The notes under the pieces: generated by a model | Told to the model about the DNA's origin: nothing | The model's input: the letters and a program-made list of their open reading frames with translations, nothing else | Databases searched by the model: none | Translations under genes and position numbers: made by a program | DNA from: Firmicutes bacterium UBA6132 | GTDB lineage: Bacteria > Bacillota_A > Clostridia > Tissierellales > Sedimentibacteraceae | NCBI GenBank assembly: GCA_002435835.1 | Contig: DIVM01000277.1 | Location: 1-24,930, forward strand | Reading direction: 5' to 3' | Length of the DNA: 24,930 nt | Shown: positions 1 to 16,157 of the stretch, piece by piece | Numbering within the stretch: position 1 is the first letter of the stretch | How the letters are laid out: every line of letters begins with the position of its first letter

Positions 1-453
1 AGATCAAATAAAGGAGCTGTATGATGTTGGATTTCAGCTGAGATGGTCTCGGATATTACAAACAGAATTATGCCCATCCGATCCATCTCCATAAATAATA
101 ACTTCATCACCTATTACTGCATTTGTAATATCAGTTAGATCAACCATACATTGATCCATACATATCATTCCCAATACTTGTGCTTTTTTACCATGGATAA
201 TAACATATCCAACTCCGCTCATTTTCCTAAAGTAACCATCAGCAAATCCTAAAGTGTAGCAACTGCAAGATAATCTGCACCATTTTCTATTATTGTTGGG
301 GCAATCGTAGTTGCACCATGACCGAGCCATCCCCCTATACAACTGCCATCATTGCTACATCATTTCCGATAATTTCCTTTATAGTTTTTACATTATGTGT
401 AATACAATCAAGATTATTTCTACAATAACATCTCTTAATAAATTATGATTCAT
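1..453 (-). pseudogene. alr: alanine racemase, decayed remnant (runs off left edge)
   Basis: Read on the minus strand from an ATG at 453 (preceded by GAGGAAATATATTA), the pieces match the PLP-dependent alanine racemase fold, which makes D-alanine for peptidoglycan. In order: RDVIVEI, then after a frameshift NLDCITHNVKTIKEIIG and MAVV, then after another shift HGATTIAPTIIENGADYLA, then GFADGYFRKMSGVGYVII and ICMDQCMVDLTDI. The codon expected for the PLP lysine (normally VVKADGYGHG) reads TAG. About 190-200 residues of the central barrel are missing between DYLAVATL and GFADGYF (judged from the family's usual layout). The C-terminal end (SY, then ELLYLI in a shifted frame) reaches the window edge. 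A stop, several frameshifts and a large deletion make it certainly non-functional. The family assignment is firm; whether an intact copy exists elsewhere cannot be seen. Confidence 0.88.
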
Positions 454-1034: not shown

Positions 1035-2462
1035 TTAAACACTTGTCCCAAGTTCGTGTTTCTGTATTTCTTCAAATTCTTCATCAGAATATTTTTTCAT
1101 TGAATATCCTGTAAAGCCATAAATCACAGAAAATATTGGGCAAAGGAAGTTTAAAAAACAATATGGAAAGTATGCAGACCATGGCACTTGTAGCATAGTT
1201 ACACAGTATACCCCACTTCCAGTCCATGGAATTAGAGGTGCTCCCATTGTTCCTCCATCTTCTAAAATCCTTGATAAATTTTCAGGTTTTAATCTAAACT
1301 GTTTAAATACTGGTTCCATTAAAGTACCTGTCATAACATGAGCAAATGACTGTGAACCACCAACTGCATTACCAACATAGCCTATTAAAAGAGTTGTAAC
1401 AACAAGACTTCCTACAGATTTAATATAGTTAGTTAGTTTATCTACAATTGCAGGCAATATTCCAGATACTCTTAACATACCTCCTAATCCTAAACCGGTT
1501 ATCATAATAGCTGCTAACTCCAACATTCTAACTATTCCACCACGATTTAATAATTTGTTTAAAAATTCATTTCCAAAATCTCCAGAAAAACCACTATATA
1601 AAGTACCAGCTGCAAAGTTTAATGGATGTCCTTGATAGAAAACAGCAACAATTATTCCAACTACAGCTCCAAGTAAAATAGAAGTAACAGGTGATTGTTT
1701 CATAACTAAAAGTGTTATTACAAGTATTGCTGGTATAAATACAATAAATCCTACATTATATAATCCAGATATTGAATCCATTATAACTTGTACATTGGAC
1801 ATATCTACATTAATTGAACCATATTTAAACCCAAGTACAAGAAAGATAACTGCAGTGATTATATAAGATGGAATAGTAGTGTAGAACATATGTTTTACGT
1901 GAGTCATAACATCTGTACCTGCGATAGCTGGACACATATTAGTAGTGTCTGACAACGGTGACATTTTATCTCCGAAATATGCTCCACAAATTACAGCTCC
2001 AGCAGTCATTCCTGCAGGTACACCTAAACCTTCACCGATTCCCATACATGCAATTCCTGCTGTTGCAATTGTTCCCCAAGAAGTACCTGTTGCAAGGGAA
2101 ACCAAAGAACAAAGAAACAAACTTGTAATCAAGAAGAAGCTTGGAGACATTACTTTTAATCCAGCATATATTAATCCAGGAACTGTGCCGGATGCTATCC
2201 AAGAGCCAGTTAAGGCACCTACTGCCATTATAATTACAATAGCTTCCATACCTCTTCTGATCATCTCAAAAGCACCAGTTTGTAAATCAGAATATGACAT
2301 ACCTATTTTGTAAGCAAACGGAACAACAATTAACCAGCTAAAGAATAATAAAGTTGGCAATTTTACTTTAAACATAAGTATCCCAATAACCATAAAAAGA
2401 ACAATTAATCCTAAAGCTAAGCACGCCATTCCGAACGTCATAGATGTTTTTTCTTTTTTCAT
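1035..2462 (-). CDS. NhaC-family Na+/H+ antiporter
   Basis: A 475-residue integral membrane protein of the NhaC family, which exchanges cytoplasmic Na+ (or a solute) for protons across the cell membrane. About 11-12 hydrophobic segments span its length. Family landmarks are the ATGTSWGT segment followed by GAYFGDKMSPLSDTTN, and near the C-terminus GGSQSFAHVMTG with EDGGTMGAPLIPWTGSG. I place the start at 2462 (MKKEKTSM), because GGAGGAA lies seven bases upstream of that ATG. An in-frame ATG at 2477 would itself overlap that ribosome binding site. The gene lies downstream of the aminotransferase in the same direction. NhaC relatives include amino-acid and organic-acid exchangers, so it may import or export a substrate or product of the neighbouring catabolic genes; that is inference. 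The exact ion or solute cannot be read from the sequence. Confidence 0.88.
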   Translation of the reverse strand: MKKEKTSMTFGMACLALGLIVLFMVIGILMFKVKLPTLLFFSWLIVVPFAYKIGMSYSDLQTGAFEMIRRGMEAIVIIMAVGALTGSWIASGTVPGLIYAGLKVMSPSFFLITSLFLCSLVSLATGTSWGTIATAGIACMGIGEGLGVPAGMTAGAVICGAYFGDKMSPLSDTTNMCPAIAGTDVMTHVKHMFYTTIPSYIITAVIFLVLGFKYGSINVDMSNVQVIMDSISGLYNVGFIVFIPAILVITLLVMKQSPVTSILLGAVVGIIVAVFYQGHPLNFAAGTLYSGFSGDFGNEFLNKLLNRGGIVRMLELAAIMITGLGLGGMLRVSGILPAIVDKLTNYIKSVGSLVVTTLLIGYVGNAVGGSQSFAHVMTGTLMEPVFKQFRLKPENLSRILEDGGTMGAPLIPWTGSGVYCVTMLQVPWSAYFPYCFLNFLCPIFSVIYGFTGYSMKKYSDEEFEEIQKHELGTSV

Positions 2463-2578
2463 TTTAAATTCCTCCATTTTTTAGTGTGTAACGTAGACAC
2501 CCATATTAATTAGCTTTTATTTTAAGGGTTACAGAGCTTTTGTAAATCAAAGCATCCCCTTACTATAACAATTTCGAT

Positions 2579-2635: not shown

Positions 2636-2670
2636 GTATGTATGTATGTATGTATTTATTTATTTATTTA
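2636..2670. repeat. tetranucleotide microsatellite (GTAT)5(TTAT)n over the aminotransferase stop
   Basis: On the plus strand, five copies of GTAT (2636-2655) run directly into about 3.75 copies of TTAT (2656-2670). The aminotransferase stop codon and its last two codons (2660-2668) lie inside the TTAT part. Slippage would alter only the extreme C-terminus and 3' flank, because TAA recurs in the repeat on the coding strand. Confidence 0.9.
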
Positions 2671-3835
2671 ATTCTGCTAAGGCTTCTTTCATTTTTTTCA
2701 TTCCTAATTCAATATCTTCAAATGATGCAGCAAATGAAATTCTAATAAAGCCCTCTCCTGTTTCACCAAAAGCACTGCCTGGAACTACAGCTATGCCAGC
2801 CTTTTCTAATAGGTACATTGACATTTCACTTGACGATAAATCGTATTTTTCAATAGATGGAAATATGTAAAATGCTCCTTGTGGTTTAACATATTCAATA
2901 TCCATTTTATCTAAACTTTTCATTATGTAATTTCTACGACGTTCAAATTCCTTAACCATTTCTTTAACACAGTCCTGCGATCCAGTTAAAGCTTCAATAC
3001 CACCAATTTCAACAAATGTATTAGGGCAACTAATCATATGTTGATGAATCTTTAAAATTCCTGATAATAATGCCTTTGGTACTACCAAATATCCAATTCT
3101 CCATCCGTCCATAGCATATGTTTTTGAAAAACTACCAATTATAATTGTTCTTTCTATCATATTTGGTAAATTAACAATAGGATTATAGTTAACATTATCA
3201 TATATTACACCATTGTAAATATCATCAGATATTACTATTAAGTTGTATTTTACAGCTAATTCTGCAATTTTCTTTATGTTTTCATCATCAATTATTATAC
3301 CTGTTGGGTTATTTGGTGTATTTAATATAATGCATTTAGTTTTTTCTGTAATATATTTCTCTATTTTATCAGCAGTTAAAATAAAGTTATCATTAATTGT
3401 TAATGGTATATGTACTGCTTTAGCACCAGTTAATTGGATCCAACCATCATAATACACGTAAGATGGAATTGGTACAAGTACTTCATCTCCAGGATTTATA
3501 ACACCCTGAAGAGCAGCTACTATAGCTTCAGTAGCCCCTACAGTTTCTATTACTTGCTCTGGCTGTGCATCAATTTTAAAGTCTTCATATAATCTCGTAC
3601 ATACAGCCTTTCGAAAATCCATAGATCCAGGTGTTGCTGTATAGTGCACCTTGCCTTCATCTAAAGCTTTTTTTGTTGCTTCTTTAATGTGTTCTGGCGT
3701 ATCAAAGTTTGGCCTTCCAATTGAAAAGTCAATTACATTTTTCCCTTGTTTTCTTAATTCTTGAACCTTAGTTAATACTTCCCTAATTTTAGATGGTTGT
3801 AATCCTTCAGTTCTGCTTGCTGGTCTTATATCCAT
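2660..3835 (-). CDS. class I/II pyridoxal-phosphate aminotransferase
   Basis: A 391-residue fold-type I aminotransferase of the aspartate aminotransferase superfamily, which moves an amino group between an amino acid and a 2-oxo acid in the cytoplasm. Visible landmarks are the substrate-loop start FSIGRPNFDTP (about 37-47), NTPNNPTG (172-179), SDDIY with the PLP-ring aspartate (203-207), SFSKTY with the Schiff-base lysine K238, the following WRIGY, and the carboxylate-binding arginine in GFIRISFA near the C-terminus. Length is normal. GGGAGG eight bases before the ATG fixes the start. It is divergent from the LysR gene and lies upstream of the antiporter. In a fermentation context it would produce the 2-oxo acid that feeds the hydroxyacyl-CoA route to the right; this is inference. 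Aspartate, aromatic or branched-chain specificity cannot be decided here. Confidence 0.9.
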   Translation of the reverse strand: MDIRPASRTEGLQPSKIREVLTKVQELRKQGKNVIDFSIGRPNFDTPEHIKEATKKALDEGKVHYTATPGSMDFRKAVCTRLYEDFKIDAQPEQVIETVGATEAIVAALQGVINPGDEVLVPIPSYVYYDGWIQLTGAKAVHIPLTINDNFILTADKIEKYITEKTKCIILNTPNNPTGIIIDDENIKKIAELAVKYNLIVISDDIYNGVIYDNVNYNPIVNLPNMIERTIIIGSFSKTYAMDGWRIGYLVVPKALLSGILKIHQHMISCPNTFVEIGGIEALTGSQDCVKEMVKEFERRRNYIMKSLDKMDIEYVKPQGAFYIFPSIEKYDLSSSEMSMYLLEKAGIAVVPGSAFGETGEGFIRISFAASFEDIELGMKKMKEALAELNK

Positions 3836-4037
3836 TGTTTACCTCCCAGTTGTTTAATATTAATGATAATTACTTAATAATTAAAAATATAATAAATAGA
3901 ATTTATCTAATAATTACCTATTTCTCATTATTAATATATGTTTTTTAAAGATGCCGTACTTGCTTTTAGAAAATTTAAATCCTCACCTGATATGAATCCG
4001 TTTATCCTCCACCATTAATTATTATTACTCCTTTATT

Positions 4038-4056
4038 CGAATCGTTTTCCGATTCG
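4038..4056. promoter_or_regulatory. inverted repeat CGAATCG-N5-CGATTCG, candidate operator
   Basis: Two perfect 7-base arms surround a TTTTC spacer. The element is GC-richer than its surroundings and lies about 200 bases upstream of the aminotransferase start. The symmetric arrangement with an odd spacer suits a dimeric regulator, or a hairpin in the aminotransferase leader. No T-run follows. Confidence 0.4.
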
Positions 4057-4173
4057 GTAAAAGTTTTTCAATAAACCTCAAGTTTCTATGTAAAGAGTTT
4101 TATGAACTTAAGGTCTATTAATAAATAGTATAAATAGACATATTAATCCTCCCAAATTTTATTTTTATATAAG

Positions 4174-4386: not shown

Positions 4387-5278
4387 ATGAATTTACTACA
4401 ACTTAATTACTTTAAAATTTTAGCAGAACAGCAACATCTTACAAATACAGCTAAAAAGTTATTTATTTCACCTCCAGCTTTGAGTGCTTCTATAGCACGT
4501 TTAGAAGAGGAGTTAGGTTATATACTTTTTGAACATGTAGGTAGGAATATAGTACTTAATAATAATGGGCTTATATTATATAAGCATGTTAAGAATATTT
4601 TTTCTTCTATAGATTACGCACAAATGGAATTGGGAAGCTAATTCTATACAAAAACAAACAGTAAATGTAGCTGTATCTGCATCAACTCTTTGGTCAGATG
4701 CGATAATGTCATATTATAAGAAATATCCACAAATATATATTAATCAAACTGCTCTTAAATTGGACAAACTTAGAGATTATGAATATAATAGTCAGTTTGA
4801 TTTAATTATAACAGGTCTTCAAGATTTAAGTCCTAACGAATGGGAATATATGGTAATAATACCTGAAGACAAACCTGTACTTGCAGTTTATCCAAATCAT
4901 CCACTTGCTAATTTAAAAAACTTATCGTTGTTAGATGCAAAGGATGAATCTTTTATTGCATTATCCAAAGGATATTCTTCAAGAAAGTATTTTGATGACA
5001 TGTGTGATTTAGCTGGTTTTACACCTAAAATAGTTCTTGAAGTAGACTATCCACTAAGGTCTGAGATGGTACAAAAGGAGTATGGAATTTCTTTTACTAC
5101 AATCTTAGGTTCTAAAACACAAATTTTGAACGGACTTAAATTTATTGAAATAAATTATCCTGTTAATTACAGAATACAGTCAATTTTTTGGAGAAAAGGC
5201 CGCGAGCTGTCACAGTCCGCATTATCTTTTAGGGATTTTATGATTGATTATTATAAAAAATATGATCCTACATTATAA
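4387..5278 (+). pseudogene. LysR-family transcriptional regulator, single-base frameshift
   Basis: The first frame (4387-4641) encodes a LysR winged helix-turn-helix, with NYFKILAEQQHLTNTAKKLF and then PPALSASIARLEEELG, but stops after 84 residues. The continuation is in the next frame: removing one G from GGG at 4632-4634 joins MEL to EANSIQKQTVNVAVSAS. That gives about 296 residues, the normal LysR length, including an effector-binding domain to 5278. The start has AAAGGAG eight bases upstream. LysR regulators usually control the divergent gene and/or nearby catabolic operons, so the aminotransferase and the CoA-transferase operon are natural targets. As it stands, only the DNA-binding half would be made. 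An ATG at 4706 could in principle start the effector half, but it has no good ribosome binding site. Sequencing error, recent mutation and programmed slippage cannot be told apart here. Confidence 0.85.
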
Positions 5279-5555: not shown

Positions 5556-5620
5556 TCATTATTATGAAATCGTTATTAAAATCTTGATTTATTATTTATA
5601 AATTTTATTAGTTAATTAAT

Positions 5621-5635
5621 GTCGCATGTTATTCT
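5621..5635 (+). repeat. shared 15-base motif, copy 2
   Basis: Exact second copy of GTCGCATGTTATTCT (first at 4174-4188), ending 46 bases before the CoA-transferase start. TATAAT follows at 5642 and at 5651, so a regulator or alternative sigma factor bound here could act directly on initiation. Confidence 0.6.
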
Positions 5636-5681
5636 AACCTATATAATTTATATAATTGATGAAGAGAGGATAATAATTAAT

Positions 5682-6869
5682 ATGTCTAAACAAGCATTAG
5701 AAGGACTTAAAGTAGTTGAGGTAGGAAATATTTTAGCAGGCCCATGGTGTGCTACTTTAATGGCAGATTTTGGAGCTGAAGTTATAAAAGTTGAACCACC
5801 AAAAGTTGGGGATTTGATGCGCGGTATGGGAAGAATTAAAGATTTATGGTACAGTGTTGAAAATCGAAATAAAAAAAATATAACTATAAATTTAAAAAGT
5901 GAAATAGGAAAGGAACTTTTAGTAAAGTTAATTAAAGATGCTGATATTCTGGTTGAAAACTTTAGGCCTGGAGTATTTGCAAAGTTAGGATTTTCATGGG
6001 AAAGACTACAAGAGATTAATCCAAAACTTGTTTACGTGTGTTCATCAGGTTATGGTCAAACAGGACCTAATGCAAAAAAACCTGGTTTTGACAGAATAGG
6101 ACTAGCTCTTGGAGGATTCCTTGAAGTATCTGGAGAGGCTGGCGGTCCACCAATAAAACCTCAAGTATCAGTAGCGGATTTTTATACAGCTATGTTTGCA
6201 TGTATAGGTGCAATGTTTGCAATCTATAACCGAGATGTTGTTGGAACAGGCAAAGGCCAGTTGATAGATTGTTGCTTAACTGAATCTACATTAAGAATTC
6301 AAGAATCTATAATAGCGGAATACAGTTATGACGGAAGTGTAAGAACAAGAATTGGAAATGGTACATTTGTAACAATACCTTCAGGACACTTTATCACTGC
6401 TGACGGAAATTGGATTGTTTTATCAGTTTCAGGTGACAAATTGTTTGCAACTTGGGCTGAAGTAGTAGGAAGACCGGATCTGATAACAAATCCAGAATAT
6501 AACAATCCTCAGGGGAGACAGAAAAATCGTGATGAATTAAATAAAATTGCTGAGGAGTGGATTAAACTCCATACGGTAGATGAATGTTTAGAAAAATTTG
6601 GTGATGAGATACCTTGCGCAAAAGTATATAATGTTGAAGATATATTGAAGGATGAACATTTTAAAGCGAGAAATGCAATAATAGATATCGCAACAGAAAA
6701 ATTTGGTACTATTAAAATGCAAAATGTAACTCCAAAAATGTCAAATACTCCTGGAGAAGTTAAGTGGGTAGGTGAAGCTTTAGGTAAATTTAATCATGAA
6801 ATACTATCTGAAAGATTAGGTCTTTCTGAGGATCAGATAGCTGAACTTGAGTTAAACGGAGTTATATAA
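5682..6869 (+). CDS. class III (CaiB/BaiF) CoA-transferase
   Basis: A 395-residue family III CoA-transferase that moves CoA between carboxylic acids through an aspartyl-CoA anhydride intermediate. The N-terminus LEGLKVVEVGNILAGPWCA, GAEVIKVEPP (32-40), GYGQTGP (124-129), and the catalytic aspartate D166 in VSVADFYTAM are visible. The start at 5682 (MSKQALEG) is preferred: GAGAGGA lies upstream, and the in-frame extension back to 5619 is AT-rich and unlike the family. It is the first gene of the dehydratase operon. Its likely role is to load a 2-hydroxy acid with CoA from the enoyl-CoA or acyl-CoA product, as HadA or FldA do in Stickland fermenters. From memory, its sequence around D166 looks closer to general CaiB/formyl-CoA-transferase types than to FldA, so the substrate may differ. 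Overall role inferred from neighbours. Confidence 0.9.
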   Translation: MSKQALEGLKVVEVGNILAGPWCATLMADFGAEVIKVEPPKVGDLMRGMGRIKDLWYSVENRNKKNITINLKSEIGKELLVKLIKDADILVENFRPGVFAKLGFSWERLQEINPKLVYVCSSGYGQTGPNAKKPGFDRIGLALGGFLEVSGEAGGPPIKPQVSVADFYTAMFACIGAMFAIYNRDVVGTGKGQLIDCCLTESTLRIQESIIAEYSYDGSVRTRIGNGTFVTIPSGHFITADGNWIVLSVSGDKLFATWAEVVGRPDLITNPEYNNPQGRQKNRDELNKIAEEWIKLHTVDECLEKFGDEIPCAKVYNVEDILKDEHFKARNAIIDIATEKFGTIKMQNVTPKMSNTPGEVKWVGEALGKFNHEILSERLGLSEDQIAELELNGVI

Positions 6870-6908
6870 TTACAAAATAAATGACTAAATAGCAAATGGG
6901 GTAAATTG

Positions 6909-7691
6909 ATGTATGTTTTAGGAATCGACATAGGATCTACTGCTAGCAAGGCGGTAATAATTACAAAAGAAAGAAAAATATATGCTAAGGCAGTAGTTTC
7001 TGATGGTACAGGAACAATTGGACCAAAAAAGGTATATGATAAAATATTGTCAGAAAACAATTTTACAAAAGGTGATTTTTCGCGAATTTTGGTAACAGGT
7101 TATGGAAGATTTTCTTTTGATGATGCTGACAGCCAGAAAAGTGAAATAAGTTGCCATGCAAAAGGTATAGTCTTTCTTGATCCTAATGTTCGAACAATCA
7201 TTGATATTGGGGGACAGGACGTTAAGGCTATTCGATTGAATGATAAAGGAATGATTCTCAATTTTGTGATGAATGACAAATGTGCAGCAGGTACAGGGCG
7301 TTTCCTTGATAACATGGCTAAAATATTGAATGTTAAAATCTCAGAGTTAAGCACCATAGCAGAAGGTGCTAAAGAGATAATAAACATAAGCAATACATGT
7401 ACAGTATTTGCTGAATCAGAAGTTATATCACAGCTTTCAAATAATGTGAGGATTGAAGATTTAGTTGCAGGAATACATAAGTCTGTAGCTAAACGTGTGG
7501 CTGCACTTGCTTATAGGAATGGAATTGTCAAGGAAGTTGCAATGAGTGGTGGCGTGGCTCTTAATAAAGAGTTGGTCAAATCTCTTGGCGAAGAAATAAA
7601 GATGGATATATTTGTTCATGAAGACTGCCAGTTTGCCGGTGCTTTAGGAGCTGCATTATTTGCTTTGGAAGAATTAGAAAAGCAAAGTTAG
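6909..7691 (+). CDS. ATP-dependent activator of 2-hydroxyacyl-CoA dehydratase
   Basis: A 260-residue BadF/BadG/HgdC-type ATPase. The homodimer holds one [4Fe-4S] cluster and, powered by ATP, injects a low-potential electron into the dehydratase to start its ketyl-radical reaction. Visible are the phosphate-binding GIDIGSTASK (5-14), a second nucleotide motif IDIGGQD (98-104), and the two cluster cysteines C125 in NDKCAAGTGRF and C164 in SNTCTVFAES. These lie almost exactly where HgdC has its cysteines. MSGGVALN and GALGAALFA complete the ASKHA fold. I start at ATG 6909, because GGGG lies seven bases upstream; a TTG at 6906 is the alternative. It sits 39 bases after the CoA-transferase and directly before the dehydratase subunits, the usual order. 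The family is certain; the substrate of the partner enzyme is not. Confidence 0.94.
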   Translation: MYVLGIDIGSTASKAVIITKERKIYAKAVVSDGTGTIGPKKVYDKILSENNFTKGDFSRILVTGYGRFSFDDADSQKSEISCHAKGIVFLDPNVRTIIDIGGQDVKAIRLNDKGMILNFVMNDKCAAGTGRFLDNMAKILNVKISELSTIAEGAKEIINISNTCTVFAESEVISQLSNNVRIEDLVAGIHKSVAKRVAALAYRNGIVKEVAMSGGVALNKELVKSLGEEIKMDIFVHEDCQFAGALGAALFALEELEKQS

Positions 7692-7730
7692 AGAAAACAT
7701 TTTCTAAATAAGAAAAGGAGATATATTATT

Positions 7731-8996
7731 GTGAGTGAAGTTAAAGAGCAAAAACAGAAAAAGCCATTACCCAAATCACGTATTATGGTAAATGAACAAA
7801 CTGCTAAAGTTTATGCTGATGCTTGGGCTGCAGCGGAAAAAGGAGAGCCTGTGGGTTGGTCAACAGCAATATTCCCTCAGGAACTCTGTGAAGCTTTCGG
7901 AGTGCCATTAGTTTATCCTGAAAATAATGCCGCAGGTATATCAGCAAAACATTTAGAAAGTCAGTTTATTCAGCATGCAGAAGGAGAAATGCGGTATCCT
8001 ATAAATATTTGTTCTTATGCAAGATTGAACATTGGCATGGCTGATAAAATCAAACAACCAGGGTGGGAAAGGGTTGAACCAGCAATGCCTGTTCCAACTT
8101 TCTTATGTTTAGCAAACAACAGCTGTACACAACTTGTAAAATGGTATGAAAACTTATCAAGAAATTTAAATATTCCTATATTTTTTGTAGATTGCTTATT
8201 TAACTATTATGAAGAAGAACCTAAACCTCATAAAGTTAAATATTTAAGAAGTCAGATAGAAAATAATATTAAGAAAATGGAAGAATTTTTCGGAAAGAAA
8301 TTTGATTGGGATAAGTTTTTAGAAGTACAAAAAATTTCTCAAATTAATAGAAAATTATTTAATGAAATAGTGGAATTGAATTCGAGAAAACCTTCTCCAA
8401 TGAATGGATTTGATTTATTTAATTATATGTCATGTTTAGTTCTTTGTAGAGGTAAAGAATCTACTACAGAAATATTGAAACAGTTAAAAAGCGAAGTAGA
8501 AGAACATATTGCTAATAGTACATCAACTTACGGTACAACTCCTCAAGAATATCGTGTTCACTGGGAAGGAATTGCATGTTGGCCAAATTTAGGTTATAAC
8601 TTAAAAACTTTAAAAAAATATGGCGTAAATTGTGTTATGAACGGATATGTAACTGCTTGGGATGTAGCATATGAACCTGGAGATTTAGATGGAATGGCTA
8701 AAGCATATCAAACATCTTCTACAAATAGCTTCAGTACACCAAGTATTATGGATATGAGAACGAAGTCCATTAAAAAGTTTGATTGCGAAGGAATGCTTTG
8801 CCATGTAAATAGAAGCTGTAAGCTAATGACATTCCACATTTTTGTAGGTCGTGAACTAATTGAGGAAAATGCTCAAATACCAACAACAAATTTTGATGGC
8901 GACCAATCTGATACGAGGGTATTCAGCGAAGCTCAATTTGAAACAAGGCTTCAAGGACTTGTTGAAGTAATGCAAGCGAACAAGGAGGCTAAATAA
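7731..8996 (+). CDS. 2-hydroxyacyl-CoA dehydratase, first (alpha-type) subunit
   Basis: A 421-residue HgdB/FldB/HadB-family subunit. With the next gene product it forms the Fe-S heterodimer that removes water from an (R)-2-hydroxyacyl-CoA to give the (E)-2-enoyl-CoA by a radical mechanism. The family signature is spread through GWSTAIFPQELCEAFGVP, PINICSYARLNIG, a cysteine-containing LCLANNSCTQL, and FDCEGMLCHVNRSCK. These cysteines are candidates for the [4Fe-4S] ligands. Length is normal for the family. The start is GTG at 7731, with AAGGAG ten bases upstream. The basic N-terminal tail (KEQKQKKPLPKSR) is a little longer than the recognisable domain. Two bases separate it from the second subunit, implying coupled translation. 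Substrate could be an aromatic, branched-chain or polar hydroxyacyl-CoA. Confidence 0.93.
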   Translation: MSEVKEQKQKKPLPKSRIMVNEQTAKVYADAWAAAEKGEPVGWSTAIFPQELCEAFGVPLVYPENNAAGISAKHLESQFIQHAEGEMRYPINICSYARLNIGMADKIKQPGWERVEPAMPVPTFLCLANNSCTQLVKWYENLSRNLNIPIFFVDCLFNYYEEEPKPHKVKYLRSQIENNIKKMEEFFGKKFDWDKFLEVQKISQINRKLFNEIVELNSRKPSPMNGFDLFNYMSCLVLCRGKESTTEILKQLKSEVEEHIANSTSTYGTTPQEYRVHWEGIACWPNLGYNLKTLKKYGVNCVMNGYVTAWDVAYEPGDLDGMAKAYQTSSTNSFSTPSIMDMRTKSIKKFDCEGMLCHVNRSCKLMTFHIFVGRELIEENAQIPTTNFDGDQSDTRVFSEAQFETRLQGLVEVMQANKEAK

Positions 8997-8997
8997 T

Positions 8998-10143
8998 ATG
9001 GCAGATATAAACATTTTATTAAATAAATTTGCAGATATAGCTAATAATCCGAGGACTGTAATGAATAAATACATTGCAGAAGGAAAAAAGGTCATAGGTT
9101 GCTTTCCTGTATATACTCCACAGCCTTTAGTTACTGCATCAGGAATGATACCTATGGGTATTTGGGGAGGACAGGTTACACCAACTGTAGCAGGAAAATA
9201 TAATCCAATATTCACTTGTTCAATTATGAGATCATGTCTTGAAAATGGAATGACTGGGATCTATGAAGGTATGAGTGCTGCTATTATGCCCATGCTTTGT
9301 GATACCTTCAGAGGCATGAGTTCAGGATGGAGAGCCGGAGTAAAAGATATTCCTTTAATTTCATTTATACACCCACAGAACAGATTGGACTCTGGAGCAC
9401 TTGAATTCATGATAGAAGAATACAAAAGTGTTCAAAAAAAATTGGAAGAAATATCAGGGACTAAAATAACAAATGAAGAATTATCAGATACATTGGATTT
9501 ATACAATAAAAGAAATTCTTTAATGAGGGAATTTTGCAAGGAGGCAAACAATCATCTTGATATTGTTACTCCTGTTGTAAGACACAATGTAATGAAAAGC
9601 GCAACTTTTTTAGATGTAAATGATACTATTTCAATTGTAGAAGAATTAATAAATGAATTAAAAAAACATCCAATTTATAATTGGTCCGGCAAAAAAGTAA
9701 TATTGACTGGTATAACTGCAGAACCTGAAGAATTTTTGAATATTTTTACTGAAAATAATGTAGCTGTAGTTGGAGATGATTTAGCGCAAGAATCAAGACA
9801 ATATAGAACTGATTATCTAAATGGCAACTCAGCTATGGAATGTCTTGCTGCTCAGTGGTTTGATATTAAAGGATGTTCAATGGCTCATGAATCTGACAAT
9901 ACAGTAAGAGGACAAATCCTTTTGGATATGGCTAAAAATAATGAAGCTGATTGTATTGCTGTTTGTTTAATGAGATTTTGTGATGTTGAAGAATATGATT
10001 ATCCGTATATATCTAAAATGACAGAAGAAGCAGAATTGCATAGCTTATGCTTAGAAATTGATCAAAGCACACAGGATAACGGACAATCAAGAACAAAAAT
10101 CCAAAGTTATGCAGAAATAGAATTGTTAAATGCTGATGCATAA
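8998..10143 (+). CDS. 2-hydroxyacyl-CoA dehydratase, second (beta-type) subunit
   Basis: A 381-residue HgdB-like second subunit of the dehydratase heterodimer. It shares the family pattern with its partner: GKKVIGCFPVYTPQPLVTASG near residues 29-50, a cysteine at TCSIMRSC, the mid-protein HNVMKSATF, and the C-terminal CLMRFCDVEEYDYPY followed by a typical LEIDQSTQDNGQSRTKIQ. The cysteines in these blocks would coordinate the second [4Fe-4S] cluster. GGAGG in the end of the upstream gene serves as its ribosome binding site, eight bases before the ATG. The gene is intact and of normal length. After it comes a 286-base gap, so the downstream genes may be read through or have their own promoter. 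Assignment is firm; the substrate is unknown. Confidence 0.93.
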   Translation: MADINILLNKFADIANNPRTVMNKYIAEGKKVIGCFPVYTPQPLVTASGMIPMGIWGGQVTPTVAGKYNPIFTCSIMRSCLENGMTGIYEGMSAAIMPMLCDTFRGMSSGWRAGVKDIPLISFIHPQNRLDSGALEFMIEEYKSVQKKLEEISGTKITNEELSDTLDLYNKRNSLMREFCKEANNHLDIVTPVVRHNVMKSATFLDVNDTISIVEELINELKKHPIYNWSGKKVILTGITAEPEEFLNIFTENNVAVVGDDLAQESRQYRTDYLNGNSAMECLAAQWFDIKGCSMAHESDNTVRGQILLDMAKNNEADCIAVCLMRFCDVEEYDYPYISKMTEEAELHSLCLEIDQSTQDNGQSRTKIQSYAEIELLNADA

Positions 10144-10277
10144 ACTAAAAATATAATAACAAGTAAATTATATTAATGTAATATTTCATTCATATGAATA
10201 CTTATATTGATTGGATTTGTTTAATCTCGAGAAAAAATTGGATATTGAAATATTATTAATTGTTATTATTTGTATAA

Positions 10278-10391
10278 CATAAGTTTTGTTTTTTATGGAA
10301 AAATTTCTATGTCTGTTACTTAGTTATGGGAATTGTCATGGCTGCTGCTACAGGAGGCTGCTGTACAATAGTTGGTCTACATCAAAGTTGA
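10278..10391 (+). other. possible gene remnant: hydrophobic reading frame in the 286-base gap
   Basis: The gap between the dehydratase and the cysteine protein holds a hydrophobic open stretch (10278-10391). It contains FYVCYLVMGIVMAAATGG, CCTIVGLHQS and then a stop. Its only start codons (ATG 10326 and 10338) lack a ribosome binding site. Composition is richer in G and C than the surrounding non-coding DNA, with alanine and glycine codons typical of a transmembrane helix. It could be the tail of a lost membrane transporter or a coincidental frame. Nothing else is recognisable in 10144-10429. Confidence 0.25.
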
Positions 10392-10429
10392 CAGTAGAGG
10401 GTATACAATAATATATATGTAGGTGAATA

Positions 10430-10909
10430 ATGATTAAATTAGATGAATATAGAGAAAAAATAATAAATGATTCCAGAAATTATTACAGGGAAGGCCTTAA
10501 TTGTTCTGAGTGTGTATTTAAAAGTTTTTTAGATTTAGGTATATCAGATTTTTCTCCTGAAGTAGTTGCTCTATCAACAGGTTTTGGTGGGGGAATTGGA
10601 ATGACAAAAAATACTTGCGGAGCTGTATCGGGGGCGGCTCTTTGTGTTGGGGCTATTAAAGGAAGAAAAGATCCTTTATTAAAAGAGACGGCTCAGGAAA
10701 GAATTGAAGAATTAACTGACATTTATAGCACGTTTAATAAATTAATAAATGAGTTCACAGAAATATATGGAACTATTTTATGCAAAGAATTAACTGAAAA
10801 TTATTCTGATTGGCATTCAAAAGAAAGAAGAAAAGGATGTCAAGATATTATTGGGTATGCATCTACTTTAGCAATAAAATATGCAATGAATGATGATATA
10901 AAATCATAA
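10430..10909 (+). CDS. C_GCAxxG_C_C family protein (cysteine-rich, putative redox)
   Basis: A 159-residue cytoplasmic protein of the C_GCAxxG_C_C type. The family is defined by spaced cysteines that probably bind a metal or form redox disulfides; no reaction is established. Visible are GLNCSECV (about 23-30), FGGGIGMTKNTCGAVSGAAL with the CGAxxGA core (about 50-70), CKEL (about 122) and RKGCQDII near the C-terminus. All family cysteines appear present. AGGTG five bases before the ATG marks the start. Sixteen bases separate it from the enolase-superfamily gene, so the two are probably co-transcribed. Members often lie near anaerobic redox enzymes, so a role in electron transfer or cluster supply for the dehydratase or reductase is possible but unproven. 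Confidence 0.8.
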   Translation: MIKLDEYREKIINDSRNYYREGLNCSECVFKSFLDLGISDFSPEVVALSTGFGGGIGMTKNTCGAVSGAALCVGAIKGRKDPLLKETAQERIEELTDIYSTFNKLINEFTEIYGTILCKELTENYSDWHSKERRKGCQDIIGYASTLAIKYAMNDDIKS

Positions 10910-10925
10910 AATAGGAGTAGAATTT

Positions 10926-12140
10926 ATGAAAATTACAAGTATAGATGTAATGCAAGTTCCAAGCGGTAATGCAGGTTCATCAAGAGGTGCATGGAGCCCT
11001 GTAATATGCAGGATAAATACTGATGAAGGAATATATGGATTTGGTGAAGCAGGTTTAGCATATGGAAAAGGGTGGAGAGCAGGATTTGGAATGATTCAGG
11101 ATTTTGCAGAAGTCATAATAGGAATGGATCCTATGAAAATAGAACTAATATGGGAAACTATATTTAGAAAAACTTTTTGGGGAATGGGTGGTGGAACAGT
11201 TGTAAATGCTGCAATTAGTGCAATTGATATAGCACTTTGGGATATTAAAGGTAAAGCTTTAAACGTTCCTGTTTATCAACTTCTTGGAGGAAAGACTAAT
11301 GAAAAATTAAGAACATATGCAAGTCAACTTCAGTTTAATTGGGGAGCTAAAATTGATAAACAAGTTTTAATAACTCCAGAAGAATATGCGGAAGTTACTA
11401 AAAAAGCTATTGCTGATGGATATAATTCTATTAAGGTTGATCCTATTATATTTAGCGATCAACTTGACGGAAAAGGACCTTGGAAAATTACTGGGCCATT
11501 GGAAAATAGAGTAATTAAAACTGTGTATAACAGAGTTGCAGCTATGAGAGAGGCTGGGGGGGATGATTTAGATATAATAATAGAAATGCATTCTAACACT
11601 GACACTACAGCTGCTATACAAATAGGTAAAGCTTTAGAGGATTTAAGAATTTTTTATTATGAAGAGCCATGCCATCCATTAAATATACAAAATATCATCG
11701 AAGTTAAGAACAATGTAAATATACCCATAGCTTCTGGAGAAAGAATTTATACAAGATGGGGTTACAGAGAATTTTTAGAACAAAGAGTTCTTCATGTTAT
11801 CCAGCCTGATTTATGCTTATGTGGAGGTTTGACAGAAGCTAAGAAAATATGTGATATGGCTCATACATATGATTGTGCTGTTCAAATTCATGTATGTGGT
11901 AGCCCTATTTCAAAAGCAGCAGCGTTACAAATTGAGGCAGTCATACCTAATTTTATTATACATGAACATCATCAAAGGGCACTTAATTTAGAAAGTAGGG
12001 AAACTTGCATCTATGACTATCAGCCAAATAACGGTATATATGAAATTCCTAATTTGCCGGGTATTGGTCAGGAATTGTCTCCTGAAACAATTAAAAAATG
12101 TAATATTGTTACAATTAAAGAGGCAAGGCCTTATATGTAA
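10926..12140 (+). CDS. enolase-superfamily enzyme, sugar-acid dehydratase-like
   Basis: A 404-residue mandelate racemase/muconate lactonizing-type enzyme. These Mg2+ enzymes abstract the proton next to a carboxylate. The capping domain is residues 1-125; the barrel carries E220-x-H222 (IIEMHSN), E246 (YYEEP), E272 (ASGERIYTRW) and H322 (IHVCGSP). The steps 220-246-272-322 (26, 26, 50) equal those I recall for galactonate dehydratase (183-209-235-285), and H222 falls where its second histidine lies. GERIYTRW and IQPDLCLCGG also resemble that group. The first metal ligand is Glu rather than Asp. The lysine position reads K170-x-D172, not the KxK of mandelate racemase, so dehydration of an acid sugar is more likely than racemisation. 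Its place in a 2-hydroxyacyl-CoA operon is unusual. AGGAG eight bases upstream supports the start. Confidence 0.87.
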   Translation: MKITSIDVMQVPSGNAGSSRGAWSPVICRINTDEGIYGFGEAGLAYGKGWRAGFGMIQDFAEVIIGMDPMKIELIWETIFRKTFWGMGGGTVVNAAISAIDIALWDIKGKALNVPVYQLLGGKTNEKLRTYASQLQFNWGAKIDKQVLITPEEYAEVTKKAIADGYNSIKVDPIIFSDQLDGKGPWKITGPLENRVIKTVYNRVAAMREAGGDDLDIIIEMHSNTDTTAAIQIGKALEDLRIFYYEEPCHPLNIQNIIEVKNNVNIPIASGERIYTRWGYREFLEQRVLHVIQPDLCLCGGLTEAKKICDMAHTYDCAVQIHVCGSPISKAAALQIEAVIPNFIIHEHHQRALNLESRETCIYDYQPNNGIYEIPNLPGIGQELSPETIKKCNIVTIKEARPYM

Positions 12141-12268
12141 TATACATTTTATTAAGAAAGTAAAAGTTAATCTATTTGTTTTAGCTGTGAATTTTATGTT
12201 AAATACAAAATGATCCGATTTACTTGTAATTTATTTATATCAATATCTATCTTTTAAGGAGAATAGTT

Positions 12269-14293
12269 ATGAATTTGAATAGACTGTTTTCACCAGTTAC
12301 TATTAATGGATTGGCTTTAAAAAATCGCGTAGTGATGCCTGCTATTCATCATAGATATACACCTGAAGGATTTGCAACTGATCGTTTTAATGAATATTAT
12401 TGGAAAAGAGCTGAAGGTGGCCCTGGTTTAATAATTGTTGGAGGTTGCAGATTTGACGAATGTGGCTCGAAGTTAGGTATGATGAGTTTGGAAAGTGATG
12501 AATATATTGGTGGGTGGAAAAAATTTACTGATGGCATGCATAGTAGAGGAACTAAGGTCGCTGTTCAGCTTTACCATGCTGGGGGATATATTTTTTCCAA
12601 AGACTTACCCAGTGGTAAACAGGTTCTTTCACCTTCAGCAATAAAATCAAACTATACGAAAGAGATACCTAAAGAAATGACTGTTGAAGAAATCAATAAT
12701 ACAATATCTAATTGGGCAGATGGTGCAGTTCGAGCCATGAAAGCTGGATTTGATGCTATTGAAATAATAGGGTCAGCAGGATATTTAATCAGTCAATTTT
12801 TATCACCGATTACAAACCATCGCAATGATGAGTATGGTGGTTCATGGGAAAATAGATGTAGATTTCCTTTGAAAGTAATTACAACTGTAAGACACGCTGT
12901 AGGTAAGGATTATCCTTTGTTTATGAGAATATCTGGAAGTGATTTTGTGCCTAATAGCAATACTATAGATGATGCAGTACGATTTGCTAAAATCATACAA
13001 AATGCAGGAATTGATGCTATTAATGTAACCGGTGGATGGCATGAAACAAAGGTTCCTCAACTAACAGGCGATGTTCCAACTGCAGGATTTTCTTATTTAT
13101 CTAAATTAATTAAAGATGTTGTTTCCATACCTGTTTTTTCAAGCAATAGATATAATGACCCAGTATCAGCAGAAGAATCGCTATCTTTGGGCAGGGCAGA
13201 TTTGATTTGCGTTGGACGTCCTTTTATTGCTGATGCTGAATGGGCTAAAAAAGCTTTAGAAAATAGAATGGATGAAATAAGGCCTTGTATGTCATGCAAT
13301 CAAGGATGTTTAGCTAATACTTTTTTTGGTAAATCTGTTGAATGTCTTGTTAATGGTTTAGCAGGACATGAGTATTTATATAAAAATAAAACTAAATCAG
13401 TATCTAAAAATGTTCTTGTAATTGGCTCTGGGCCAGCTGGATGCGAATTTTCTATTGCAGCTTCTGAAGCAGGTCATAAAGTTACATTATATGAAAAAAA
13501 AGAATTTGTAGGTGGGCAGTTGTCCTTAGTTTCATCGCCTCCGGCAAAAAAAGAGTTTAAAAACCTATCAAAGTATTATGAAACAATGTTAAAAAAACAT
13601 GAGATTGCTGTTTTTTTGAAAAAGGAGACAACAGCTGATGAAATAATTGATGGTGGCTTTGATGAAGTAGTAATTGCTACAGGTTCAGTTCCTAAAAATT
13701 TACAAATCGATTTATCTAACTCAAATATTCAACTTGTTTTAGTTAATGATGTTTTAGAAGGAAAAGAAATGCCAGGAAAGAATGTTGTAATAATTGGAGG
13801 AGGTTCTGTTGGTTGTGAAACTGCTCAGCTTTTAGCAAGGCAGGGTTCGATTTCAGCAGATGAACTGTTTTTTCTTGAAGTTCAAAAGGCAGAAGCTAAG
13901 CAACGTATTGAATCATTGCTTAATTCATCAGACAGAAATATCGCAATAGTTGAAGTGCAAAAAAGCATTGGTTCAGGGTTTGCAACTGGGACATCATGGC
14001 CTATATTAAAGGATTTAAAGCGGTTAGGGGTTAAAAACTACACTTTATCCAAAATAAACGAAATAAAATTAAACAGTATAACAATTGAAAAATTAGATTC
14101 ATATGGCAATATTGAAAACATTGAACTTCCATGTGACACTTTAATTTCTGCTATAGGTTATAATTCAGAAAATAATTTGTATGAAAGCCTAAAGGATAGA
14201 ATGCCAAATAAACATATTATAGGTGATGCCCAAAAAGTTGGTAAAATATTAGATGCTGTAAAAGCAGCACGTATATTGGCTATGAACATTTAA
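12269..14293 (+). CDS. 2,4-dienoyl-CoA reductase/2-enoate reductase-like flavin and Fe-S oxidoreductase
   Basis: A 674-residue old yellow enzyme-type fusion, the length of clostridial 2-enoate reductases. Residues 1-330 form the FMN barrel: SPVTINGLALKNRVVMPA, QLYHAGG (100-106), IIGSAGYLISQFLSP (166-180), TNHRNDEYGG, CVGRPFIAD. Four cysteines for a [4Fe-4S] cluster follow (C340, C343, C347, C359). A flavin-binding GSGPAG (386-391) and a second dinucleotide motif IIGGGSVG (508-515) complete the NAD(P)H domain. The GSxGYL block is as in FadH-type enzymes. It would reduce the C=C bond of a 2-enoate (or dienoyl-CoA), using NADH through FAD, Fe-S and FMN. AAGGAG nine bases upstream supports the start. 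As last gene of the block it fits removal of the double bond made by the dehydratase, as cinnamate reductase does in phenylalanine fermentation. Confidence 0.9.
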   Translation: MNLNRLFSPVTINGLALKNRVVMPAIHHRYTPEGFATDRFNEYYWKRAEGGPGLIIVGGCRFDECGSKLGMMSLESDEYIGGWKKFTDGMHSRGTKVAVQLYHAGGYIFSKDLPSGKQVLSPSAIKSNYTKEIPKEMTVEEINNTISNWADGAVRAMKAGFDAIEIIGSAGYLISQFLSPITNHRNDEYGGSWENRCRFPLKVITTVRHAVGKDYPLFMRISGSDFVPNSNTIDDAVRFAKIIQNAGIDAINVTGGWHETKVPQLTGDVPTAGFSYLSKLIKDVVSIPVFSSNRYNDPVSAEESLSLGRADLICVGRPFIADAEWAKKALENRMDEIRPCMSCNQGCLANTFFGKSVECLVNGLAGHEYLYKNKTKSVSKNVLVIGSGPAGCEFSIAASEAGHKVTLYEKKEFVGGQLSLVSSPPAKKEFKNLSKYYETMLKKHEIAVFLKKETTADEIIDGGFDEVVIATGSVPKNLQIDLSNSNIQLVLVNDVLEGKEMPGKNVVIIGGGSVGCETAQLLARQGSISADELFFLEVQKAEAKQRIESLLNSSDRNIAIVEVQKSIGSGFATGTSWPILKDLKRLGVKNYTLSKINEIKLNSITIEKLDSYGNIENIELPCDTLISAIGYNSENNLYESLKDRMPNKHIIGDAQKVGKILDAVKAARILAMNI

Positions 14294-14334
14294 ATAAGGC
14301 TATGTTTTAAATTAATGTTGAAAATAATATAATT

Positions 14335-14379
14335 ATTAAGGGAAGTATATAGACTTCCCTTAATTCGTATTTTACGAAT
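14335..14379. terminator. tandem hairpins, probable bidirectional terminator
   Basis: ATTAAGGGAAG (14335-14345) pairs with CTTCCCTTAAT (14354-14364) over 11 bases with an 8-base loop. A second stem, ATTCGTA/TACGAAT (14363-14369/14373-14379), follows immediately with a TTT loop. They lie between the plus-strand reductase gene and the convergent minus-strand gene ending at 14397, so the pair could end both transcripts. Confidence 0.7.
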
Positions 14380-14396
14380 ATTGTTCATTAATAAAA

Positions 14397-14699
14397 TCAA
14401 ATACCCCCAATCAAAGTTCCTAAAAACATGTATAAAAAAGGTAGAACAAGTAAGATGATATTACTAATAAGACCTACTTTTACAAATTTATGAGATGATT
14501 TTTTTAATGATATAAAACATAAAACCAATCCTATTAGTCCTATAAATGGTGCTATAAGTAAAGGCATACCTTGAAGTTTTTGAAATGATGTAATTTTAAA
14601 AAACCAATTTAAATTTAATAATAAAATAATTAAAGGTATTATGCAATAAATGATACCCAATCCATTTCCAGAACCCTTAATAAAAAATTTACTCTTCAT
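14397..14699 (-). CDS. small three-helix membrane protein, unknown function
   Basis: A 100-residue protein without recognisable family. A basic N-terminus (MKSKFFIKGSGNG) is followed by hydrophobic segments at about residues 14-33, 43-66 and 74-97. The pattern GLGIIYCIIPLIILLL resembles small integral membrane proteins often annotated as hypothetical in Clostridia. GAGGAGG nine bases before the ATG is a strong ribosome binding site, so expression is likely. It lies 109 bases downstream of the lipoprotein gene in the same direction. I see no function; both encode envelope proteins and may be related in role. Confidence 0.6.
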   Translation of the reverse strand: MKSKFFIKGSGNGLGIIYCIIPLIILLLNLNWFFKITSFQKLQGMPLLIAPFIGLIGLVLCFISLKKSSHKFVKVGLISNIILLVLPFLYMFLGTLIGGI

Positions 14700-14719
14700 A
14701 TTTCCGACCTCCTCATATA

Positions 14720-14761
14720 ATTATATTTTAGTGTACAATTTTTAACTGTTGCGTACAATTT
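14720..14761 (-). promoter_or_regulatory. possible promoter with repeated AAATTGTAC
   Basis: On the minus strand a TATAAT (14725-14720) lies about 20 bases before the membrane protein's start. The nonamer AAATTGTAC occurs twice upstream, at 14761-14753 and 14741-14733, 20 bases apart (about two helical turns) and flanking where the -35 would be. A repressor or activator dimer on one DNA face is possible. Confidence 0.3.
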
Positions 14762-14808
14762 AAATAATTGCATTAACTCTACCGCACCGTATACTCAGAA
14801 TGTGTGGT

Positions 14809-15144
14809 TTATTGTTTTAATTCGTAAGGAATTTCGGTTACTGTATCTGCTTTATATAAACTATAAACTGACATTATTACATCGTAATATTCTATAATCC
14901 ATTCATCAGATGAAAAACCTTTTACTTCAAAAACTTTGTACTTTTTGTCACCATCAACTATTCCTATTTGCTCACCTCTAAGCGAATCTTCTGGCAATGC
15001 ACTATAAAAAGAATAAATTATACTACCTCTCTGTAACTTTGAGCCATTATTAAGTTCTTGAAAGTTTTCATACTCATTAGCATTACAAGACGTAAAAAAA
15101 GTCATTAATGCAATAATAACCAAAAACAAACGCAATTTTTTCAT
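14809..15144 (-). CDS. small putative lipoprotein, unknown function
   Basis: A 111-residue protein with an export signal: MKKLR, a hydrophobic stretch (LFLVIIALMTFF), then TSC. Cysteine 20 could be lipidated after signal peptidase II cleavage. The lipobox FTSC is weaker than the usual LxxC because of phenylalanine at -3. The mature part (about 90 residues) contains QIGIVDGDKKYKVFEVKGF and SDEWIIEYYDVIMSVYSLYK, probably beta strands, and matches no domain I recognise. AGGA seven bases before the ATG supports the start. It would sit on the outer face of the cell membrane. The gene lies between a small membrane protein and a transposase remnant, typical of an accessory region. Confidence 0.65.
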   Translation of the reverse strand: MKKLRLFLVIIALMTFFTSCNANEYENFQELNNGSKLQRGSIIYSFYSALPEDSLRGEQIGIVDGDKKYKVFEVKGFSSDEWIIEYYDVIMSVYSLYKADTVTEIPYELKQ

Positions 15145-15226
15145 AACAAGTTCCTACCTTACATTATATAGAAAACCTTTACACATTTTTTACAATTATA
15201 ACATTATTTCAAGATTATGTATATAT

Positions 15227-15757
15227 TTATACAAACATCGGCTTTCTTTCTCTAAATTCTGCTGTTTTTGTAAAAGCAGGGGCTACATTGCATTGAACCA
15301 TAAAATTCTTTGCTTTTACAGCTTCTTTGTCATTTTCAAATAATTCAACCCATTTAAACCAATACATATAGTTGTTGATATATTTAGTTGTAAAACCATT
15401 AATGCCAACAATATCAGTACATTTTCTAATAGAATAGCCATTTATCATACATTTTGCATATATAAGCCACATGTCCATTGATTTCTTGCTTTTATATGTA
15501 GCAGAGTTAGTAAAATCAGTAAAGGTCTTTCTACATGATTTACATATGTAACGCTGTTTACCATTATATTTCCCATTTCTTGATACAGTTTTAGCACCAC
15601 AATGAGGACAGATTTTTCCCTTAGCGAGTCTATATTCTTTAACATCTTGTGTAATTTGGTTTACTTGTGAACCTAAAACAATCATTTCCTCTAAAAAAGA
15701 ATATATACGTTGTTGTTGAGGCAAAGATAATTTTTGAATATTGTAATATTGCACCAA
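15227..15757 (-). pseudogene. IS1595-like transposase with in-frame internal deletion
   Basis: The 176-residue reading frame begins with a helical region and a zinc ribbon: C50PHC53 and C72KSC75, with GKYNGKQRYICKSCRKTF and DFTN typical of IS1595-type transposases. A helix-turn-helix (MINGYSIRKCTDIVGIN) follows to about residue 120. It then jumps to a C-terminal block, TTKYINNYMYWFKWVELF, running to the end at MFV. The DDE/DDN catalytic domain that should lie between is absent, so the protein cannot cut DNA. Full-length relatives are roughly 300 residues or more, from memory. Both element ends may be retained. No convincing terminal inverted repeats were found in the AT-rich flanks. It could still bind DNA and act as a dominant-negative partner for intact copies; that is speculation. 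Confidence 0.75.
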
Positions 15758-15790
15758 GGGATAATTATATAAATATTTATAATTTGTCGG

Positions 15791-15943
15791 ATGTTTGAAA
15801 ATAAAACAATTGAATTTATTTCAAGACGAGTTGAGCAAAAAATTGAATTGCTTGATATGAAAATAGAGAAAAAATGCGGATGGCAAGGTAGAGCCTATGA
15901 AGAAAAAATAGTTGGCAAACAGTTCAGTTTATGTATGTCTTAA
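15791..15943 (+). CDS. short orphan reading frame, possibly the tail of a disrupted gene
   Basis: A 50-residue frame, MFENKTIEFISRRVEQKIEL through KKCGWQGRAYEEKIVGKQF, ends in CMS. It looks protein-like: amphipathic, rich in Lys and Glu, and less AT-biased than its flanks. It lacks a ribosome binding site and begins 34 bases outside the transposase remnant. The simplest reading is the surviving end of a gene interrupted by the insertion element. I do not recognise the family. An independent small protein is less likely. Confidence 0.35.
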   Translation: MFENKTIEFISRRVEQKIELLDMKIEKKCGWQGRAYEEKIVGKQFSLCMS

Positions 15944-16049
15944 TTGGGGGAAAGATATATTTGAATTAAAATATAAATTGTACGACAAAACTTTGTTATT
16001 TGTTAAAAAAATAATTATATTTATGTAATATTATGTTAAAAATATATTA

Positions 16050-16078
16050 TTGTCATTAAAATAGTCTAATGATATAAT
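16050..16078 (+). promoter_or_regulatory. sigma-A promoter of sigI-rsgI
   Basis: TTGTCA (16050-16055), a 17-base spacer and TATAAT (16073-16078) match consensus at 11 of 12 positions. Initiation near 16085 gives a leader of about 70 bases. I did not see a second, SigI-type autoregulatory promoter. Confidence 0.8.
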
Positions 16079-16157
16079 AAAATGATTATTGAACTAAATT
16101 AAATTAAAATTTTACTATTTAGTATAAATAGTTATTATATAAATAAAGGTGAGTAAT

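Follow-up and report, generated by a model that had tools for sequence, protein, structure and literature searches.

When a stretch of 24,930 nucleotides from Firmicutes bacterium UBA6132 (contig DIVM01000277.1; hereafter the window) was analyzed, seven genes between 5682 and 14293 were found to combine a hydroxyacyl-CoA dehydratase (HAD) system with a member of the enolase superfamily (ENO). By sequence, the HAD enzyme is placed in a supported HadBC subfamily apart from Fld and Had, with its own type of CoA-transferase. The linkage of ENO to this subfamily across genomes appears real, and it is not obligatory. We propose, as a tentative reading that falls somewhat short of probable, that the operon ferments a sugar-derived acid via two successive dehydrations, in which ENO would act first and HadBC second, and in which an enzyme encoded elsewhere would carry out the reduction between them. 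The features of this region are as follows.

5682..6869, + strand: CoAT3, a class III (CaiB/BaiF) CoA-transferase (PF02515, 377.8 bits; scanned as ORF 5619-6869)
6909..7691, + strand: ATP-dependent activator, component A (TIGR00241, 248.2 bits, above the cut-off of 125.4)
7731..8996, + strand: HadB-like alpha subunit (3o3m_A, E 5e-110)
8998..10143, + strand: HadC-like beta subunit (3o3m_B, E 4.9e-107)
10229..10376, + strand: likely relic, without an open frame, of a gene for a DASS/CitMHS-type anion transporter
10430..10909, + strand: Cys protein, a putative redox protein of the C-GCAxxG-C-C family (PF09719, 86.8 bits)
10926..12140, + strand: ENO, a galactonate-dehydratase-like, predicted acid-sugar dehydratase of the enolase superfamily (2o56, E 6e-158)
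12269..14293, + strand: OYE, a FadH-type flavin/FeS reductase (1ps9, E 4.2e-109)
14335-14364, no strand assigned: terminator-like hairpin with a 12-pair stem after OYE, likely the operon end

All seven open reading frames (ORFs) are open on the + strand within 5682-14293, and their Pfam matches (CoA_transf_3, BcrAD_BadFG, HGD-D twice, C_GCAxxG_C_C, MR_MLE_N/C, and Oxidored_FMN with Pyr_redox_2) agree with the places and families given in an earlier note on this DNA. From CoAT3 to OYE, the intergenic gaps are 39, 39, 1, 286, 16 and 128 bases. The stem at 14335-14364 is present on both strands; the scanned region holds 8 terminator-like sites compared with 3.1 in shuffles, and the four + strand matches upstream of this stem are inside reading frames. 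The genes likely form one operon. ENO and the Cys protein gene, which had been described as embedded in the dehydratase cluster, do share this operon, but they are located downstream of HadC, between HadC and OYE.

Two HGD-D subunits and a BcrAD-type activator place the system in the HAD family. The best matches of HadB and HadC were the (R)-2-hydroxyisocaproyl-CoA dehydratase models NF052455 (453.6 bits, cut-off 750) and NF052456 (444.7 bits, cut-off 700), respectively, and neither cut-off was reached. The three Cys columns of the 3o3m alpha subunit, which we take to be the cluster ligands, were kept in the aligned HadB rows, as in the HAD family, and the Glu55 column was kept in the window HadB. 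In HadC, Cys74 was found in all 48 rows, and Cys101 and Cys328 in 47 of the 48 each. At the position of Ser37 in 3o3m, presumably an active-site residue with a catalytic role, the window HadB departs from HadBC proper and has Ala. Five of 53 HadB rows have this Ala (the window, L001, L002, L003 and L151), and the other 48, 3o3m included, have Ser. Of the best 120 homologues listed, 110 had a readable motif (the other ten were left out of the count), with 87 Ala, 3 Gly and 20 Ser. Since Ala recurs across rows and homologues, it is not a sequencing error. No statement of a catalytic role for Ser37 turned up in the literature searched; the Ala-type enzymes are a natural test of what this residue does.

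A HadB scan of genome contigs yielded 34 loci (L001-L034), and L001-L007 were window-like (HadB identity of 60-85 %). When the close type of HadC (53 % identity or more) was searched for in four genome groups, it was found in 2 of 295 genomes (G007, G776), 2 of 250 (G003, G499), 1 of 148 (G001) and 1 of 120 (G002), which added G499 (L151) and G776 (L152) to the subfamily. In the HadB tree, the ten subfamily rows formed one clade (bootstrap 100, SH-aLRT 99), and L004-L007 with L152 formed a Ser-bearing subclade (100/100); the tree gives no decision on the five Ala rows as a clade of their own. Loci L156, L157 and L158 have two or three tandem HadB-like genes followed by a single HadC.

The CoA_transf_3 domain and the catalytic Asp, whose column was kept in 46 of 46 rows, make CoAT3 a class III CoA-transferase. 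It is 60-79 % identical to the transferases of L001-L007, compared with 27-33 % for those of L008-L034. Around the Asp, the window reads VSVADFYTAM, whereas the Peptostreptococcus proteins compared, which we assume to be FldA/HadA-like, read GLGDHYAG; the unlikeness to FldA reported in the earlier note was confirmed. The closest kin of CoAT3 are its own subfamily rather than the FldA/HadA type, and we assign it to a subfamily distinct from FldA/HadA.

Compared with HadBC/HadI/HadA of C. difficile (gene names that are partly our assumption), the window shares both subunits (alpha and beta), the activator, the class III transferase, and the three Cys and Glu55 columns. It differs by scores under the HadB/HadC equivalog cut-offs, by Ala for Ser37, by a transferase with about 30 % identity to those of Fld/Had-type loci, and by the additional ENO, Cys protein and FadH-type reductase. 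The FldABC/FldI phenyllactate route with an FldZ-type enoate reductase, as we take these to be named, has the same logic (CoA transfer, radical dehydration, double-bond reduction), whereas the transferase and HadBC subfamilies differ and the window flavoenzyme is nearer to FadH/BaiCD. OYE scored 369 bits with FadH (1ps9), 450 with BaiCD (cut-off 825) and 282 with 6qkg, a chain named NCR that presumably stands for the clostridial enoate reductases (no FldZ sequence was in the comparison). The FadH Tyr, His and four Cys, which we take to have catalytic roles, were matched in the OYE alignment. The enzyme called 2-enoate reductase-like in the earlier note is a member of the flavin/FeS reductase family, but one that scores nearer to FadH/BaiCD than to 6qkg.

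ENO has full-length matches to 2o56, 2gl5, 4e6m and 2ox4 (E 6e-158 to 4.6e-131), and its nearest structures are titled 'putative'. Its scores were below the NCBIfam equivalog cut-offs for galactonate dehydratase (247 of 311) and gluconate/galactonate dehydratase (244 of 750). The metal ligands, the His after the first ligand and the Asp-His pair of the acid-sugar dehydratase subgroup were kept in 66 close rows (commonest patterns), and we assume that these residues have the roles of the galactonate dehydratase pattern. ENO shares the full-length match and these motifs with the D-galactonate dehydratase subgroup, and differs by its sub-cut-off scores and its own clade. In a quick tree without bootstrap, the orthologues (73 % identity or more; the next match drops to 62 %) were a clade of their own among the compared rows (SH-aLRT 100). 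ENO is likely an acid-sugar dehydratase, predicted to be galactonate-dehydratase-like. Orthologues were found in 1 of 291 genomes in the class of G007 and in 6 of 250 in the class of G003, and relatives at 77-84 % are named from Bacillota, Desulfovibrio, Solidesulfovibrio, Rhodoplanes and Rhizobiaceae. Relatives on plasmids were found in 18 records (best 60.3 %). An assignment of the substrate was rejected because ENO, CoAT3 and HadBC have no NCBIfam match that reaches an equivalog cut-off and the nearest solved ENO relatives are 'putative'.

Directly after HadC, an ENO orthologue (80 %) was found in L007, which belongs to an Intestinimonas metagenome-assembled genome (MAG). In L003, an Acidaminococcales MAG, a 3' fragment of ENO (63 codons, 3878-4066) lies directly after HadC and before DASS; it has 60-76 % identity to four orthologues and 55 % over 51 residues to the paralogue of the same genome, and misassembly may lie behind it in a MAG. 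G499 has an ENO orthologue and close HadBC on different contigs, and this ENO adjoins a LysR gene with 43 % identity to that of L001. With the window left out as the discovery case, an ENO orthologue is present in 3 of 9 related genomes compared with 5 of 538 background genomes, which were neither taxon-matched nor of established completeness; the HadC search did not cover the 291 genomes in the class of G007 (Fisher P 1.7e-4; 2 of 9 and P 0.005 without the L003 fragment). Against only the 248 other genomes in the class of G003, P was 0.0015 (0.021 without the fragment); all of these values are rough, given the relatedness of the genomes and the selection of the nine, across several groups, through their HadBC. 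The Fisher test disfavors a chance association of ENO with HadC, and on these comparisons the ENO-HadBC linkage appears real, not obligatory. Contigs of equal length also suggest that one ENO relative (P0003) shares a contig of 27,978 bases with a HadB relative (P0122), and another (P0006) a contig of 154,867 bases with an OYE relative (P0243).

ENO paralogues are also found with other HadBC. In the same Intestinimonas genome as L007, locus L153 (6673-17220) has in a row an acyl-CoA dehydrogenase, another CoAT3 (29 %), a LarA-like isomerase, HadB (48 %), HadC (44 %), DctP, DctQ, DctM and an ENO paralogue (56 %). The isomerase is of the nickel-pincer type, and DctP/DctQ/DctM form a TRAP transporter. 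Within 20 kb of G405 (L154), one strand encodes two ENO paralogues (52 and 49 %) together with D-2-hydroxyacid dehydrogenase, aminotransferase, alanine racemase, NhaC, DASS, 3-hydroxyacyl-CoA dehydrogenase and thiolase, and the opposite strand encodes hydratase, CoAT3 (29 %), HadB and HadC.

The neighborhood of L001 (Fusibacter ferrireducens) consists of thiolase, SDR, LysR, MaoC, CoAT3, activator, HadB, HadC, NhaC, aminotransferase and D-2-hydroxyacid dehydrogenase genes, and that of L002 of two POR-type genes, D-2-hydroxyacid dehydrogenase, MaoC, the core genes and SDR. L151 has the activator at the contig end, followed by HadB, HadC, DASS, a hydratase match with an in-frame stop, 3-hydroxyacyl-CoA dehydrogenase and thiolase. 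DASS genes are near the core in L003-L007, L151 and L152 (none in L001 or L002), together with acyl-CoA dehydrogenase in L004-L007 and L152; that of L007 is nearest to acryloyl-CoA reductase (358.6 bits, under the cut-off of 640). Aminotransferases are present in the L001 and L154 clusters, with NhaC relatives of 41-42 %, and D-2-hydroxyacid dehydrogenase genes in L001, L002, L154 and four Sporomusa-like ENO clusters (see below). Judging from these neighborhoods, HadBC would feed a reductive or beta-oxidation-like branch, and anion carriers recur.

Such a carrier may also have been present in the window. In the 286-base gap after HadC, 10229-10303 matches the DASS N-terminus and 10317-10376 a middle motif, with a best E-value of 2.8e-4. 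With ten DASS queries, the top score was 26.9 bits (query from L151), which was reached by 1 of 500 dinucleotide shuffles, and the summed score of the ten by 0 of 500, with shuffles that do not mimic membrane-protein composition. Two L007 DASS queries had no match in the whole window at E <= 1e-3, and in another stretch (14280-16150, - strand) one DASS query matched over 20 residues at a comparable level (E 0.004). Because of the composition of the shuffles and this comparable match, the relic is called only likely. DASS follows HadC in L151 and the ENO fragment in L003; if the relic is real, the carrier present after HadC in G499 would have been lost from the window, and most of ENO from L003.

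Five genomes (L086-L090), named Sporomusa-like after Sporomusa proteins 81 % identical, carry orthologous ENO (81-84 %). They share with the window not only this ENO but also GCAxxG relatives, found in L089 and L090 (33 % over 124 aa in L090), with a fragment in L088. The Cys protein had no other match at E <= 1e-3 among the loci compared and none near HadBC outside the window. Since GCAxxG relatives recur beside ENO and none by other HadBC, the Cys protein goes with ENO.

In the proposed pathway, ENO would dehydrate a 2,3-dihydroxy acid to a 2-oxo-3-deoxy acid, which a D-2-hydroxyacid dehydrogenase encoded elsewhere would convert to an (R)-2-hydroxy acid. CoAT3 would load CoA onto the latter, ATP-activated HadBC would take off the second water through a ketyl radical, and the double bond formed in this step would then be reduced by the FadH-type flavoenzyme. 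The entry to HadBC is likely a 2-oxo acid that is reduced to the (R)-2-hydroxy acid and derives from an amino acid (aminotransferase) or a 2,3-dihydroxy acid (ENO); the second source is favored for the window because ENO shares the operon. In the accessible parts of two sources, HAD chemistry is established for relatives of HadBC, and HAD enzymes are described in amino-acid and lactate fermentation (PMC11574389, PMC8473912). In a literature search, mostly outside subscription papers, none of the papers listed was seen to join an enolase-superfamily dehydratase to a HAD cluster; a single one, a plant study, has both terms.

Several results weigh against two successive dehydrations. The exact seven-gene order is absent from every examined neighborhood besides the window, and the Cys protein does not recur near other HadBC; the neighborhood comparison suggested in the earlier note thus bore out ENO in cis with HadBC (L007, with a fragment in L003 and another contig in G499, of nine) but not the conserved order. 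No ENO orthologue (best 56 % or less, or none) was found in 6 of the 9 related genomes (G001, G002, G004, G005, G006 and G776), whose completeness is not established. The five Sporomusa-like ENO genomes have no HadC relative at E <= 1e-80 (among the same 250 genomes). Four of them (G418, G426, G434 and G454) have ENO with MFS carriers, D-2-hydroxyacid dehydrogenase, a GntR/FCD regulator and a cupin protein, and a UxaA-like split dehydratase stands beside ENO in L088, L089 and L090 (not seen in L087), none of which is part of the window operon; these domains were read on L088 and carried over to the others by similarity. In G446, ENO has other neighbors, ABC-transporter genes among them. The aminotransferase, hydratase, dehydrogenase and thiolase genes of several related clusters are compatible with an amino-acid or a beta-oxidation-like route, and OYE has few close relatives (of 120 listed, 4 reach at least 76 %). 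In the window, two D-2-hydroxyacid dehydrogenase queries had no match at E <= 1e-3, so that the complete reductive route previously claimed for it does not hold. Neither a relative of the acyl-CoA dehydrogenase query nor relatives of the MaoC, hydratase, SDR and thiolase queries were found there, which leaves OYE as the only last-step candidate seen in the window. The order proposed earlier, with the enolase-type enzyme first and the radical dehydratase second, has some comparative support from the linkage, but ENO also occurs without close HadC.

ENO and the Cys protein could also be a separate sugar-acid module that shares the operon with a HadBC acting on another substrate, co-regulated since the two substrates co-occur. 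We regard this as possible, if rather doubtful. It would account for the Sporomusa-like genomes with ENO and no HadC relative, three of which have a GCAxxG relative or fragment near, and for the six related genomes without ENO. The nearest relatives also differ, namely G446 for the window ENO (84 %) and L001, without an ENO orthologue, for the window HadB (85 %). However, ENO adjoins HadC in two further lineages (one as a fragment), and an ENO paralogue is found with HadBC in L153. An ordinary Stickland-like route of transamination, reduction to the (R)-2-hydroxy acid, CoA transfer, dehydration and reduction, with ENO in a side function, seems unlikely to us. This route fits the opposite-strand neighbors of the cluster (aminotransferase, NhaC antiporter and a fragment of alanine racemase), L001 has both aminotransferase and D-2-hydroxyacid dehydrogenase, and known HADs act in amino-acid fermentation according to the accessible part of one source (PMC11574389). 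By contrast, the CoA-transferase is only about 30 % identical to FldA/HadA, Ser37 is replaced by Ala, and DASS recurs near the core, with its likely relic in the window. A role of ENO as a mandelate-racemase-type racemase or epimerase supplying the (R)-hydroxy acid to HadBC seems very improbable to us; the superfamily of ENO would allow this, and the LarA-like isomerase of L153 perhaps has such a role, but ENO has IKVDP in place of KxK (second Lys missing), which we take to be the mandelate racemase motif, and the residues assumed for galactonate dehydratase are kept over 66 close relatives.

A broader form of two successive dehydrations is an anaerobic route, unfamiliar to us, in which ENO and then a HadBC subfamily without the usual Ser37 would take two hydroxyl groups off an acid that derives from a sugar and is perhaps dicarboxylic, and in which polyhydroxy acids and certain amino acids would converge on a common 2-oxo acid, with saturated acids as the end products. 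We put it forward as a doubtful proposal. If true, the known range of HADs would widen towards sugar-acid fermentation through a subfamily that has its own transferase, Ala in place of Ser37, anion transporters and an acid-sugar dehydratase that recurs with it, and a function would be given to the enolase clade whose relatives at 77-84 % reach from Bacillota to Rhizobiaceae.

The neighbors of the operon in the window are the following.

4387..5278, + strand: LysR-type regulator split over two frames (HTH_1 and LysR_substrate pieces)
2660..3835, - strand: class I/II aminotransferase, divergent neighbor (profile match)
1035..2477, - strand: NhaC-type antiporter, divergent neighbor (TIGR00931, 448.6 bits, cut-off 370)

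LysR is a single ORF of 311 aa in L001, compared with two separate frames in the window, where it is either a pseudogene or frameshift or a sequencing error. A C-terminal fragment of alanine racemase (PF00842) was found at 34-342 (- strand), and the G405 cluster (L154) has the full gene. The divergent side with aminotransferase, NhaC and this fragment echoes L001 and G405 in gene types. At 15227-15757 (- strand), an IS1/IS1595-type zinc-binding domain (NF050000) without a Pfam match is perhaps a transposase remnant. An RsgI-like anti-sigma factor gene is located at 16877-17836, and the ORF before it (from 16149), without a Pfam match, looks sigma-factor-like by eye.

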